Source: Candidatus Undinarchaeales archaeon
GTDB taxonomy: Archaea; SpSt-1190; JASMDC01
Reading direction: 5' to 3'
DNA: 64,000 nt
NCBI GenBank assembly: GCA_030753015.1
Contig: JASMDC010000006.1
Span: forward strand, 1 to 64,000
In this document: positions 16,386-26,826 of the stretch, piece after piece
Layout of the letters: each line of letters opens with the position of its first letter
How positions within the stretch are numbered: the first letter of the stretch is position 1
The notes under the pieces: generated by a model
Seen by the model: only the letters and a program-made list of their open reading frames with translations
Database searches by the model: none
Told to the model about the DNA's origin: nothing
Program-made: the position numbers and the translations under genes

Positions 16386-16994
16386 ATGCCAATCGGAAGT
16401 GCTAAGAGAGGTCAAGCCGGGCCCATTCTACTTGTGCTCGTGCTCGTTATCGGCCTTATGGTGGTGGCCTTCGTGGGTAAGTACATCAAGGACACTGCCT
16501 CTGAGGCTATGACCAAGGGTAAGAAGGAAACGACAGCCATGGACAAGGAGCTGAGCACTCAGCTTGAGGTCACGGCTATCTATCCGACCGTTGACAACCT
16601 GAAGAACGGTTTCTGCGGCGATCCGAACTTGTGTGAGTTGTCGACCACGAACGTGAACGGCGCCAAGCTCATCCTCGAGGTGAAGAACGGGGGCAAGAAC
16701 CCCATTCGTGCCAACCAGCTGTGGGACATGAAGCTCTACGCGAACGACGTGCCCCTCGCTAACTCGACCGAGTGGGGCATCAGCGAGAATTTCGACAAGG
16801 CCTGGGCGGCCGGCGGCACCAAGAACTTCGTGCTGAAAAAGGGCTGCGGCGACCTCGCCAACCTCCCTGGTGGCTCGCTCAACCTCAAGGTTACGCCCCC
16901 TGTGGGCAGCGGTGCTACCGTCGAGATCACCTGCGAGAAGTGCTGCAACATGCAGCCTGATAAGCAGGAAGACTGCGCAGCTAAATGCAGTTAA
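16386..16994 (+). CDS. Pilin-like exported protein, paralog A
   Basis: 202 residues. SAKRGQAGPILLVLVLVIGL is a textbook class III signal: positively charged KRGQ just before a hydrophobic helix of about 20 residues. The exported part has paired cysteines (FCGDPNLCEL, CEKCCNMQP, and others) and ends in Cys-Ser. It is a close paralog of the next gene, with long shared runs such as TVDNLKNGFCGDPNLCEL. The ATG follows TTTTTATAAA by about 27 nt, and a strong hairpin terminator follows the stop, so the gene is monocistronic. Probable pilus or filament subunit; no assembly ATPase is in the window. Confidence 0.75.
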   Translation: MPIGSAKRGQAGPILLVLVLVIGLMVVAFVGKYIKDTASEAMTKGKKETTAMDKELSTQLEVTAIYPTVDNLKNGFCGDPNLCELSTTNVNGAKLILEVKNGGKNPIRANQLWDMKLYANDVPLANSTEWGISENFDKAWAAGGTKNFVLKKGCGDLANLPGGSLNLKVTPPVGSGATVEITCEKCCNMQPDKQEDCAAKCS

Positions 16995-17015
16995 GAATCT
17001 CGTAGGACAACAGGT

Positions 17016-17056
17016 AAAGGGCCCCTTTACTGGGGCCCTTTTTTCCTTTTTTTTTT
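17016..17056 (+). terminator. Hairpin plus oligo-T terminator after paralog A
   Basis: AAGGGCCCC (17017-17025) pairs with GGGGCCCTT (17032-17040) around a 6-nt loop and is followed by runs of T up to 17056. Confidence 0.8.
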
Positions 17057-17131
17057 AAATGAGGATAAGATGATATCTGATATTTCCTCGCCGGGGAGGG
17101 TAGGTTTAAATTTATGGCCTGTGAAAGTGGT

Positions 17132-17761
17132 ATGGGAATGGAATGCGTTTGGTGGCAAAAAAGGACGCGAGGTCAGAGCGTGGGAGCACCCATCCTTCTT
17201 GTGCTCGTGCTCGTAATAGGCCTCATGGTGGTGGCGTTCGTGGGGAAGTACGCCAAGGACACCACCTCTGATGCTATGACAAAGGGTAAGAAGGAATCCG
17301 CGAACCTGGACAAGGAACTGGGCACACATCTCACGATCACGGCCATCTTCCCTACTGTAGACAACCTGAAGAACGGCTTCTGCGGCGATCCCAACCTATG
17401 CGAGCTGACCTCCACCAACGTGAACGGGGCCAAGCTCGTGCTCGAGGTCAAGAACTCCGGCAAGAAACCGCTGCGCGCCAATCAGCTCTGGGATATGAAG
17501 GTCTACGCCAACGACGTTCCCCTCACCAACCAGACCGAGTGGGGTGTGACCCAGGGGCATGACTCTGTCTGGCAGCCTTCCACTACCAAGAACATCGTGA
17601 TCGACAGGTCCTGCTCCAACCTCATCGGGCTCCCCGAGGACGCGCTCACCATCGTCGTGAGACCTCAGGCGGGGACCTCCGGCATCATTGAACTCACCTG
17701 TGAGCAGTGCTGCGCCATGCAGCCCTCCCGCCAGCTCGATTGCGCTGAAAAGTGCGCGTGA
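17132..17761 (+). CDS. Pilin-like exported protein, paralog B
   Basis: 209 residues. KRTRGQSVGAPILLVLVLVI carries the class III signal and hydrophobic helix. The mature part matches paralog A across its length (GKKPLRANQLWDMKVYANDV against GKNPIRANQLWDMKLYANDV). Cysteine positions are conserved, including the C-terminal CEQCC and CAEKCA. The start is taken as ATG 17132, because the TTTAAATTTA element is 25 nt upstream; an in-frame ATG at 17114 lies next to that TATA box. Two near-copies with separate promoters suggest major and variant subunits, or alternative expression. Confidence 0.75.
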   Translation: MGMECVWWQKRTRGQSVGAPILLVLVLVIGLMVVAFVGKYAKDTTSDAMTKGKKESANLDKELGTHLTITAIFPTVDNLKNGFCGDPNLCELTSTNVNGAKLVLEVKNSGKKPLRANQLWDMKVYANDVPLTNQTEWGVTQGHDSVWQPSTTKNIVIDRSCSNLIGLPEDALTIVVRPQAGTSGIIELTCEQCCAMQPSRQLDCAEKCA

Positions 17762-17836
17762 GCCCGCCGTACGGCGGCATCAGCACGAGACGAACCTTTT
17801 TAAACCAGCACGGAGCAAACTTGTATAGGGGATACC

Positions 17837-18430
17837 ATGGCACTACCACGGCCCTGTGGGCTGGGACGACGCGGCCAGAGCCAGCCGATCATCATGGTCC
17901 TTCTCCTCGTCGTCGGCCTGATGGTCGCCGGCAGCGTCGGAGTGTACCTCAACCGCATGGCCTCAGACGACCTGAACGATGTGGAGAAGAGCAAGGACCA
18001 GTTCAAGGAGGCTCTTAACACCAAGATCGAGGTGATCGCGGCCTATGGTACAAAGGACACTACAGGACCGCGCGCCAACGTGTACTGTTCCGGGGGCTGT
18101 GAACCGGCAAAGGCCACCATGCGCGTAGTGCTGCTGATCAAGAACACCGGCGAGAACGCCATCTATCGCTCTCAATACGAGAACCTCAAGATCTACATGA
18201 ACAATAAGCCCCTGTCCAACGGTACCGAATACCGCCTGGACGAGAGCAAGGACCTCACACGTGGCGCCCAGATGAACGTCCCCCTCAATATCACCTGCTC
18301 ACAGATAGGTAATACGCTCGAGCACCGTGCGGAGTTCAAGGTGGGTCCGCCGAAAGGGACCCCTGGTGTCGGTATCGTTGACTGTACGGCATGCTGTGGT
18401 GAAGAGGAGCGGTGCCTCACCGCGTGCTGA
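17837..18430 (+). CDS. Pilin-like exported protein, paralog C (diverged)
   Basis: 197 residues. GRRGQSQPIIMVLLLVVGLM is a class III signal. The mature domain shares the plan of paralogs A and B (NTGENAIYRSQYENLKIYMN, N-terminal linker helix, C-terminal CTACCGEEERCLTAC) at much lower identity. A CTTTTTAAA element lies at about 17797, and AGGGG shortly before the ATG may be a ribosome site. The aminopeptidase gene begins 5 nt after its stop, so the two may form an operon. Confidence 0.72.
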   Translation: MALPRPCGLGRRGQSQPIIMVLLLVVGLMVAGSVGVYLNRMASDDLNDVEKSKDQFKEALNTKIEVIAAYGTKDTTGPRANVYCSGGCEPAKATMRVVLLIKNTGENAIYRSQYENLKIYMNNKPLSNGTEYRLDESKDLTRGAQMNVPLNITCSQIGNTLEHRAEFKVGPPKGTPGVGIVDCTACCGEEERCLTAC

Positions 18431-23540: not shown

Positions 23541-24659
23541 CTAACCTTTAAAAAAACTCCGGATTCGGGCACGTAGCCCCTCGCTTTCGTACCAGCACTG
23601 TGGGTCCTCGGAAAGATGATCACCGGTCGCACCGTACGCGATGGCGCGGCAGCCGCCGCAGTGGAAACGATACAGACAGGGACCGCATCTTCCCCTCAAG
23701 CGGTCCCGATCACGCAGTTCCTCCAGTAGGGGCGCATTGTGCCACACATCCCCCAAGTCGTCCTCATGGAGGTTACCTATGGGGATGGGAAGGCGACGGC
23801 AGGCCAGCAGCGTTCCATCGGCCAGGAGTGCCAGACCCCCTGTCCCGATGGAGCACCCCCCGGCAGAGTGACGGGCCCGGGCGAGATAGCACGCGCCGAC
23901 AGGTACGCCGCGGGCAAGTTGCCACAGGGGATCACGGGGAGGGATGTCCATTTCGCCTTCAAGTTCACACCTATGGTGCAACAGGTCCGTGAAGAGCTCT
24001 TGCGTACCTTCTCGGTCCAGGAGCTCATCGACAAGGTCTTTTCCCCGGCCCCAGGGGACGAGCCGAGAGAAACCCACACGGTCGATCCCTTCCTGATGGC
24101 AAGACTTGAGCACCGCTTCGACCTCGTCCACGTTGAGCTTGCTCACGGTCATTGAGGCCGTCGTGCTCACACCGGCGTCACGGAGGTGGGCGAGACCGCG
24201 CATGGCATCGCACCAGGCACCCTCTCGTCCACGTAGCCGGTCATGGCTCGCTTCGGTACCGTCGATGCTCACCTGCACTGCTTGGACGCGCATGCGCGCG
24301 AGTGCGGAGGCGATCTCTGCCGTGATGAGCGTTCCGTTGGTAAGTACCTTGACACCGAGTCGGTGTTTCCGGGCCGCCTTGATGAGCGAAAGGAGGTCCT
24401 TGCGGAGGAAGGGCTCACCCCCGGTGAAGTGGATGCGTCCCCGTAATCCCTCATTCTGCAAGAACCGTGCATAACGGTCGATGATGGAGATGCACTCCTC
24501 GGTGTCGGATTCATCACCGCCCGCCCCATAGTCGCCGTAACAATGCTTGCATGAGAGGTTGCACCGTTTAGTTACATGCCACTGCAGGAAGAAAGGCTCC
24601 CGGTTACGCGGGCACCTAGTCGGCGCATCCACCACAGCTGTCACACGATCCGCAGTCAT
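23541..24659 (-). CDS. Radical SAM enzyme with C-terminal SPASM domain
   Basis: About 372 residues. The radical SAM core has WHVTKRCNLSCKHCYGDYG (CxxxCxxC, binding a 4Fe-4S cluster) and the GGEPFLRKD motif. The SPASM region has C, 12 residues, G, 4 residues, C; then CGPCLYRFHCGGCRA (CxxCx5CxxC) and a last Cys in DPQCWY, enough for two auxiliary clusters. Such enzymes modify peptides (PqqE, AnSME, RiPP maturases) or tetrapyrroles; the CGGCRA...GDHLSEDPQC part also resembles AhbD/NirJ haem enzymes. The 5' end overlaps the Cys-ladder peptide gene. Starts ATG 24659 or GTG 24644, 24635 or 24632 are possible. Confidence 0.88.
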   Translation of the reverse strand: MTADRVTAVVDAPTRCPRNREPFFLQWHVTKRCNLSCKHCYGDYGAGGDESDTEECISIIDRYARFLQNEGLRGRIHFTGGEPFLRKDLLSLIKAARKHRLGVKVLTNGTLITAEIASALARMRVQAVQVSIDGTEASHDRLRGREGAWCDAMRGLAHLRDAGVSTTASMTVSKLNVDEVEAVLKSCHQEGIDRVGFSRLVPWGRGKDLVDELLDREGTQELFTDLLHHRCELEGEMDIPPRDPLWQLARGVPVGACYLARARHSAGGCSIGTGGLALLADGTLLACRRLPIPIGNLHEDDLGDVWHNAPLLEELRDRDRLRGRCGPCLYRFHCGGCRAIAYGATGDHLSEDPQCWYESEGLRARIRSFFKG

Positions 24660-24771
24660 TGCAATCGCTGCAATCAGAGCAGCTCCCAGAGCCGTAGATC
24701 GCTGAGCGTATGATGATGAGAACAATGAGGATGACGAAGAGTATCGGTACGAGGAGGATGGTTAGAGCCAT
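24616..24771 (-). CDS. 51-residue membrane peptide with seven-cysteine ladder
   Basis: The ATG at 24771 opens a 51-codon frame. Residues 3-21 are one hydrophobic helix (LTILLVPILFVILIVLIII). After Arg-Ser-Ala-Ile-Tyr-Gly, the tail has cysteines at 31, 34, 37, 40, 43, 46 and 49, each separated by two small or acidic residues (SD, SD, ND, GS, DS, GG). GGAGGG lies 7 nt upstream, and a TATA element lies 28 nt upstream. The stop falls inside the radical-SAM gene, so the two are one operon with overlapping frames. It could be a substrate (RiPP precursor) or metal-binding partner of that enzyme. No known family is recognised. Confidence 0.7.
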   Translation of the reverse strand: MALTILLVPILFVILIVLIIIRSAIYGSGSCSDCSDCNDCGSCDSCGGCAD

Positions 24772-24793
24772 CGGTATTCCCTCCGGTGATAAT

Positions 24794-24805
24794 CTATTTA
24801 AATGT
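24794..24805. promoter_or_regulatory. Shared bidirectional TATA element
   Basis: The palindrome ATTTAAAT (24796-24803) lies about 28 nt from the ATG of the Cys-ladder peptide (24771, minus) and about 25 nt from the GTG of the Arg/Ser-tailed peptide (24825, plus). One TATA box could thus serve both divergent genes. Confidence 0.5.
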
Positions 24806-24824
24806 GTATCGACATGTATGGGCC

Positions 24825-25043
24825 GTGAAGTTCATCGACCTCCTCATTGTGCTGGTGGTCATCGCGCTCATTGTCGTCGTAATCTCCAATGCAACCGGGG
24901 GCAGTACCTACTACTATGGTTCAGGTCGTCGCCGAAGCCGCTGGTCCTCAGTGAACGTATTCCACTGGGGGAGCAGCAGATCGAGCGGTACCAGATCCCG
25001 GGGGTACAGTGCCACCAGATCCGGTGGTAGTGGGATTAAATGA
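24825..25043 (+). CDS. 72-residue single-helix membrane protein with Arg/Ser/Gly/Tyr tail
   Basis: The GTG start lies 25 nt after the shared TATA. Residues 3-20 form one hydrophobic helix (FIDLLIVLVVIALIVVVI). The tail of about 48 residues is low in complexity, with Tyr-Tyr-Tyr, many Arg-Ser pairs, and Gly-Ser steps, and is strongly basic. It mirrors the divergent Cys-ladder peptide in plan (short N-terminus, one helix, unusual tail) but not in composition. No family is recognised. It may be in one operon with the DUF350 gene 35 nt downstream. Confidence 0.5.
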   Translation: MKFIDLLIVLVVIALIVVVISNATGGSTYYYGSGRRRSRWSSVNVFHWGSSRSSGTRSRGYSATRSGGSGIK

Positions 25044-25078: not shown

Positions 25079-25303
25079 ATGGCAAGCCCTGCACTAGAGG
25101 ACATCGCGATGACACTCATCTACAGCGTCGTTGCGGTACTGATCATGGCCTTCGCCCTTCCTATGGCGTTCAAGATCTTCGACTGGATCACCCCCATCGA
25201 TGAATGGGAGGAGATCAAGAACAAGAACATGGCCGTGGCCATGTACGTGTCGGCCGCTTTCATTAGCTTCGCCCTTGTTATCGTGGGCGTGCTCATCTCC
25301 TAG
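25079..25303 (+). CDS. DUF350-like membrane protein
   Basis: 74 residues. Two hydrophobic helices (about 10-33 and 54-74) flank KIFDWITPIDEWEEIKNKNMAVA; the D-x-x-T/P-x-x-E-I-x-x-x-N-x-A-V-A pattern is typical of one DUF350 (YjfL) repeat. In bacteria, DUF350 proteins occur with SPFH, DUF4178 and PspA-like genes; such genes lie at 34.1-36.7 kb here. A strong GGAGG stands 10 nt before the ATG. The region after the stop, to about 25600, shows no gene. Confidence 0.65.
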   Translation: MASPALEDIAMTLIYSVVAVLIMAFALPMAFKIFDWITPIDEWEEIKNKNMAVAMYVSAAFISFALVIVGVLIS

Positions 25304-26319: not shown

Positions 26320-26826
26320 TTGAGGAACATTGCACGTGACCAGCGGGGTGTAATCAACCAATTCTTCGTCATCATTATCGGTATCCTCCTCGTCGTAGTG
26401 CTGCTCCTTGTGGGAAACAAGGTCCTCTCGAACATGTTCTGCATGCACTCCGTATCCGCTGTCGCAAACGACGTAGAGCGGGTCCGCGAGACCCTGAGTC
26501 GGGTGTACGCGGGAGCAGAAGGGTCCGTGGACTCCATCGAGCTCCACGTTCCGGCTAAAGCCAAGTACTGCTTCATCCGCGGACAGATTTATATCGAGGG
26601 CACCTGTGTATCGGAGGGGTACAAGCTACCGAACCTCATCGTCCACAATCCTCAGATTGATAGCGAGATCCGGGCCAAGGTGGAGGAGATGGCGAGCCTC
26701 ATCGACGCCGCTGACGACGAAACCTCTACATCGACCCTCTGTCTCACTTCCGGTTTCTACTCGGTGAAGTTCGAGCGCACGGCAGGTCATGTGAACCTGT
26801 ACTCTGTGTTCGGTACACGGGAGTAG
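26320..26826 (+). CDS. Pilin-like membrane protein, first gene of the surface cluster
   Basis: 168 residues. RDQRGVINQFFVIIIGILLV gives an Arg-Gly just before the hydrophobic helix, as in type IV pilin-like proteins, without the canonical Gln. The outside domain has cysteines in KYCFIRGQ, GTCVSEG and TSTLCLTSG. The frame has no ATG: the TTG at 26320 is the best start, because the upstream frame closes quickly. Nine genes follow one direction from here to 34099 with small gaps. No family known. Confidence 0.65.
   Translation: MRNIARDQRGVINQFFVIIIGILLVVVLLLVGNKVLSNMFCMHSVSAVANDVERVRETLSRVYAGAEGSVDSIELHVPAKAKYCFIRGQIYIEGTCVSEGYKLPNLIVHNPQIDSEIRAKVEEMASLIDAADDETSTSTLCLTSGFYSVKFERTAGHVNLYSVFGTRE

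Follow-up and report, generated by a model that had tools for sequence, protein, structure and literature searches.

A seven-cysteine ladder peptide paired with a SPASM radical-SAM enzyme in an Undinarchaeales archaeon, and its putative selenopeptide counterparts in bacteria

The window analyzed here, a stretch of 64,000 nt from a Candidatus Undinarchaeales archaeon, contains a short gene for a cysteine-rich membrane peptide whose end overlaps the start of a gene for a radical-SAM enzyme with a SPASM domain. This arrangement raises the question of whether the enzyme acts on the peptide. The initial annotation took the peptide to be the substrate or a membrane metal-binding partner of the enzyme, and it named the resemblance of the enzyme to the haem enzymes AhbD and NirJ as a reason for doubt.

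The ladder peptide and the overlapping enzyme

The annotated frame of 51 codons, with one membrane helix and a perfect three-residue ladder of seven cysteines, was confirmed from the sequence and its translation (Table 1). The cysteines occupy exactly positions 31, 34, 37, 40, 43, 46 and 49, and residues 1-19 average 3.3 in hydropathy. The GGAGGG and TATA-like elements described before the frame are present, as is the overlap with the start of a complete SPASM radical-SAM gene. The overlap probably couples translation of peptide and enzyme, and the same arrangement was found at a bacterial (L036) and an archaeal (L189) locus.

Table 1. Coordinates of the ladder peptide, the enzyme and their signals in the window, and of a second archaeal ladder system
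Feature	Position	Strand	Remarks
Probable ladder-peptide maturase: SPASM radical-SAM enzyme of 372 aa	23541-24659	-	Pfam, NCBIfam, trees, structure model
SPASM auxiliary-cluster cysteines C269, C287, C325, C328, C334, C337, C355	23595-23855	-	alignment, invariant
Radical-SAM motif CxxxCxxC, C33/C37/C40	24540-24563	-	alignment, invariant
Overlap of ladder peptide end and enzyme start	24616-24659	-	44 nt
Ladder peptide gene, MALTILLVPILFVILIVLIIIRSAIYGSGSCSDCSDCNDCGSCDSCGGCAD	24616-24771	-	51 aa; single N-terminal membrane helix and seven-Cys tail
Seven-step CxxC ladder, residues 31-49	24625-24681	-	synonymous codon variation
Predicted membrane helix, residues 2-21 of ladder peptide	24709-24768	-	hydropathy 2.0-3.6 (19-residue windows)
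GGAGGG, Shine-Dalgarno-like, 5' of peptide ATG	24779-24784	-	read from sequence
TATA-like element, TTTAAATA	24795-24802	-	by eye
Ladder peptides and PapB-like enzyme of archaeon G369	L133: 1444-1840 and 1876-3057	+	

A pattern search for the seven-step ladder of TGY codons returned a single occurrence in the 3.85-Mb genome; for a five-step ladder, three of the four matches lay at the window ladder itself. None of 100 simulated windows contained a seven-step ladder. Since the ladder codons differ synonymously (GAT/GAC, TGC/TGT and TCT/AGC/TCG), the ladder is not a DNA repeat, and this variation, together with the uniqueness of the ladder in the genome and its absence from the simulated windows, argues for selection on the protein. 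Comparison of the peptide with NCBIfam gave zero matches at E ≤ 10.

Pfam matches of the enzyme (Radical_SAM, 5e-25; SPASM, 3e-7) agree with the presence of the CxxxCxxC motif and the seven-cysteine SPASM set, which place it in the Radical SAM/SPASM superfamily and are invariant in an alignment of 12-15 relatives. The gene is complete, as annotated. Its frame extends upstream as far as a TTG at 24725; because homology begins at about residue 19-23 of the form starting at ATG 24659, this ATG is the most plausible start. An AF2 model of moderate quality (pLDDT 70, pTM 0.75) had SkfB, a RiPP maturase, PqqE, anSME and SuiB as its nearest solved folds, matches which at this model quality back no more than the general fold. 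An RRE/PqqD domain was not detected, and no transporter or peptidase gene adjoins it.

Divergently from the module, a 72-aa single-helix peptide with a Ser/Arg-rich tail is encoded at 24825-25043 (+), ending at the upper bound of the annotated region, and is followed by a DUF350 gene (25079-25303, +; Pfam 1.5e-13). Both were weighed as parts of the module, and no link was found. Elsewhere in the window, a series of paralogues that look secreted or pilin-like (16386-18427, +; also at 26320 and 27869) have N-termini of the type GQxxPILLVLVLVIGLMVVAFVGKY; those tested had no Pfam match.

The enzyme clade and its separation from haem enzymes

The best matches to the enzyme in GTDB genomes were enzymes from Chloroflexota and Desulfobacterota that share the motif FF[IL]QWH[LV]T[EK]RCNL, with 35-41% identity between query and clade members. 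Profile searches of these genomes left a clear gap, with values of 1e-92 to 1e-186 for clade members and of 1e-65 or weaker for the remaining SPASM enzymes. With a profile built from the bacterial members only, the query reached 323 bits and the archaeal enzyme of L189 282 bits, while every outgroup remained at or below 255. In a maximum-likelihood tree, the query grouped with the bacterial clade (support 100/98). After addition of L189, a group of 25 bacterial enzymes together with the query and that of one DPANN-like archaeon was separated with 99/98 from 23 AhbC/AhbD/NirJ-like and other enzymes; a tree with AhbD and NirJ was among the checks that the initial annotation had proposed. In a further tree, a wider clade was obtained (100/98) in which the query is basal. 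In the best tree of this wider clade the strict set of ladder enzymes was not monophyletic, and its monophyly was not rejected (AU p 0.125).

AhbD (TIGR04545) gave the enzyme its best NCBIfam score, 204.9 bits against a cut-off of 500, followed by NirJ2 (199 bits, cut-off 500) and TIGR04053 (183 bits); all curated cut-offs were missed by far. By comparison, a true archaeal AhbD (L013) scored 452.5 bits with the AhbD profile. On contig C62 of the same genome, an AhbC-type enzyme (L030, 528.6 bits), an AhbA/B-like gene and an AhbD-type enzyme (416.5 bits) are encoded side by side. With AhbC and AhbD of its own, the genome covers the haem role at another locus. No haem gene was found near the window enzyme, and the enzyme did not group with AhbD in the trees. 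It shares the broad SPASM branch and a generic similarity with AhbD/NirJ, whereas tree, scores and genome context exclude it from membership, and an AhbD/NirJ identity was rejected. The doubt raised at the outset is thereby removed. Nor did the enzyme's relatives lack a peptide and fall with AhbD/NirJ beside haem genes, an outcome named beforehand as contrary to the proposal: its bacterial relatives and five archaeal ones carry peptides, as follows.

Companion peptides in bacteria and archaea

The bacterial set comprised 26 loci (L031-L042, L174-L187, L212) from Desulfobacterota and Chloroflexota. Unbiased clustering of flanking frames at 11 of them yielded a single conserved companion, a frame of 32-38 aa just upstream of the enzyme. 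A short peptide upstream of the enzyme was present in all 26 loci and ends in C-x-x-[U/C]-K-x-U-K-x, where U denotes an in-frame TGA; read through, these frames end C-x-x-U-K-x-U-K-x-(K)-stop. Their leaders are of the type KEAxFWxxxKKxL. Two of the peptides (L037, L187) read C-x-x-C-x-x-U; thus, one step of the ladder can hold either Cys or Sec. In an automated test for a C..[CU]..[CU] tail, 22/26 bacterial loci were positive, compared to 0/43 outgroup loci and 0/10 loci of intermediate enzymes inside the wider clade. L179 was counted among the 22 through a chance frame, and its real peptide was seen separately; in L174, L180, L185 and L186 the peptide is present and fails the length, position or ladder rule of the test. 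The window locus likewise has a short peptide with a C-terminal [C/U]xx[C/U]xx[C/U] tail at the enzyme start. In L176-L186 the enzyme starts further downstream, so coding for the enzyme does not account for the conservation of UKxUK. The bacterial peptides are apparently absent from NCBIfam. At L178 and similar loci, a terminator-like hairpin (GGGCAGATATGGC...GCCATATCTGC, then a T run) lies between selenopeptide and enzyme and could set an excess of peptide over enzyme.

TGA is normally read as a stop, so bacterial selenopeptides of this kind would be annotated as truncated or missed. A SECIS-like hairpin of the type GTTGCCGGTTCGGCAAC follows the peptide reading frame. Its loop lies 16-21 nt from the last TGA in loci with two TGA codons. 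The two C-x-x-C-x-x-U loci have Cys at the site of the earlier Sec, and there the loop is 18 nt from the sole TGA; L174, with a single TGA, has a distance of 27 nt. Because an Rfam scan at gathering thresholds gave no SECIS, the hairpin was tested by covariation. Pairing was retained in 96.8% of cells, and five of the seven pairs showed changes on both sides. Cells with such changes numbered 15, compared to a mean of 3.9 after shuffling; the score was reached in 0/500 shuffles, and slid controls were much lower. A tRNA-Sec of at least 69 bits was detected in 19/24 carrier genomes, with none in G000 and G212. As a tRNA-Sec (at least 65 bits) was also found in 5/6 control genomes of the same phylum, where it is common, this test is permissive. 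The reading of the in-frame TGA as Sec in the bacterial peptides has strong computational support, short of proof.

Five archaeal relatives of the enzyme (L189, L198, L199, L201, L204) are directly preceded by Cys-rich peptides, and all of these except that of L204 contain CxxCxxC. The L189 peptide (ECNTCKQCPGCGCMCNND) overlaps the enzyme ATG by 8 nt. For the enzyme of L204, the nearest named family is ACGX (293.7 bits). CxxCxxC alone is common to the ladder peptides compared, including that of the window. The window peptide has no leader conserved with the other peptides and bears a membrane helix in its place, which is unique to the window among the peptides compared.

A search for frames combining a helix with a CxxC ladder had been suggested as a further check, and it yielded no close counterpart of the window form among 394 archaeal genomes; matches to the seven-step pattern in these genomes were mostly of low complexity or in other frames. 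Those in G002 and G003, two relatives from the same class, were dismissed as lying in wrong frames or at contig edges, and among the 10 genomes of the source's class that were examined, the enzyme was absent from the other nine. A ladder frame (CTGCTGCEDCTNCIDCKDCDGCIGCTNCKGC; L142) was seen close to a contig edge in archaeon G360 (contig C23). One viral-contig scan gave weak generic matches and nothing more.

A separate system was found in archaeon G369 (contig C146), where two near-perfect CxxC-ladder peptides lie directly 5' of a PapB-like SPASM enzyme (230 bits of 340). This enzyme itself begins with a CxxC ladder. As it belongs to a different branch (27% identity), the association of ladders with SPASM enzymes has come about repeatedly. 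Other archaeal loci showed different arrangements. In L190-L193 (archaea G235, G072, G164, G324), a protein with a PqqD-like N-terminus, a SPASM enzyme, a further Cys-rich protein and a methyltransferase form a conserved cluster, which looks like another peptide-modification system. In L200, L202 and L203, a PqqD-like frame of about 64-70 aa stands directly 5' of a SPASM enzyme of the wider clade, and a second conserved enzyme follows.

Function of the module and comparison with known systems

Pairing of the enzyme family with peptides carrying a C-terminal three-residue Cys/Sec ladder is well supported. The pairing supports the annotated role of the peptide as substrate or partner, since relatives of the enzyme in bacteria and archaea follow short peptides with C-terminal CxxC/CxxU. 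As between the two roles, that of substrate is likely, at roughly two chances in three or slightly better, and the locus as a whole is probably a two-gene RiPP-type module in which the SPASM enzyme binds and modifies the short Cys-ladder peptide. The peptide would offer a C-terminal ladder of thiols, one at every third residue, to the overlapping downstream enzyme, which is expected to hold three Fe-S clusters and would modify the ladder region. Because Arg22 follows the helix, the positive-inside rule would leave the tail facing the cytoplasm, within reach of the enzyme. Sactipeptide and ranthipeptide maturases cross-link Cys thiols; by analogy, the likeliest chemistry would be carbon-sulfur cross-links from ladder cysteines to neighbouring residues and, in the bacterial relatives, carbon-selenium cross-links from Sec. 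As to bond type and use, cross-links of thioether or selenoether type, a metal site or a new cofactor may tentatively be considered. The pairing, the overlap and the structural neighbours SkfB, PqqE, anSME and SuiB favour a maturase whose target is the ladder. Since no transporter or peptidase gene adjoins the module, the product probably stays in or at the membrane for a redox or metal function and is not exported as an antibiotic.

The strongest competitor, although unlikely, is an unmodified, membrane-anchored peptide that binds metal or Fe-S and serves this enzyme or something else as electron donor, chaperone or metal buffer, with the enzyme acting on a different substrate. A CxxC ladder interspersed with Asp, Ser, Asn and Gly is a plausible set of metal ligands, the anchor and the lack of an adjoining transporter or peptidase suit such a role, and Sec would also fit redox use. 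However, the pairing recurs across phyla while the sequence outside the ladder does not, as for a precursor and its maturase, and the SPASM enzymes of this branch appear, from structure models, to match peptide maturases. Less probable still is a redox-cofactor module like those of PQQ and mycofactocin, in which the enzyme rearranges the peptide C-terminus and a small piece is excised. It would account for the C-terminal position of the conserved core, the single enzyme, the conserved short leader in bacteria, the lack of export genes and the methyltransferase gene 3' of the enzyme in L189, L198, L199 and L201 (TehB match in Pfam for L198); against it, the flanks of the 11 bacterial loci showed neither a peptidase nor a dehydrogenase as a conserved partner, and seven ladder steps exceed the need of a small cofactor. 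A haem-pathway enzyme of AhbD/NirJ type beside an incidental ladder frame is highly improbable, being largely refuted by the scores, the tree separation and the lack of haem genes nearby, despite AhbD being the top-scoring family.

Among the closest known systems is ACGX (TIGR04340), with a SPASM enzyme of similar length and, by its name, a short Cys-periodic target; the window enzyme differs in scoring 167.2 bits of 400, and its ladder has period 3, not 4, and no ACGX repeats. The thio(seleno)oxazole/selenobacteriocin system SbtA-SbtM (TIGR04081/TIGR04082) also combines a radical-SAM/SPASM maturase with a short Sec-containing peptide, but the SbtM profile spans 516 aa and the window enzyme scored 154.7 bits of 350. 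Ranthipeptide maturases (SCIFF, TIGR03974; PapB, NF047865) are likewise SPASM enzymes that cross-link Cys-rich peptides. The window enzyme, however, reached 88 bits of 340 with PapB, the SCIFF maturase was not among its 25 best families, and no SCIFF peptide (TIGR03973) was found, so that assignment to SCIFF or a named ranthipeptide family is not upheld. The CXXX-repeat (TIGR04115) and Cys-every-fifth CefB (NF038107) systems share, by their names, a fixed Cys spacing in the SPASM target, but this is 4 or 5 instead of 3, and neither is among the 25 best families. The table of the 2026 prokaryotic selenoprotein catalogue, in the portion consulted (PMC13188914), includes a selenobacteriocin with the motif SGUG, that of SbtA, as opposed to CxxUxxU in the bacterial ladder peptides, and no short CxxUxxU peptide among its motifs; related selenopeptides may already be described by Haft and Tolstoy (2025; PMC12013261). 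A SPASM maturase with a Cys-periodic peptide is already known, while the period of 3, the Cys/Sec exchange and the membrane anchor appear to be new.

It is conceivable, at somewhat less than even chances, that these loci represent a new class of RiPP type, united by a single SPASM maturase family working on Cys/Sec ladders of period three. Its products would be selenopeptides with C-x-x-U-K-x-U in anaerobic bacteria and Cys-ladder peptides in archaea, that of the window being membrane-anchored, with a modified ladder that stays at the membrane as a redox or metal device. The archaeal Cys-ladder peptide is tied through one enzyme clade to an uncatalogued bacterial selenopeptide family. This would provide a compact enzyme-substrate pair that lends itself to testing. 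Because either Cys or Sec can occupy the same position, reactions of thiols and selenols within one family of maturases would be directly comparable.
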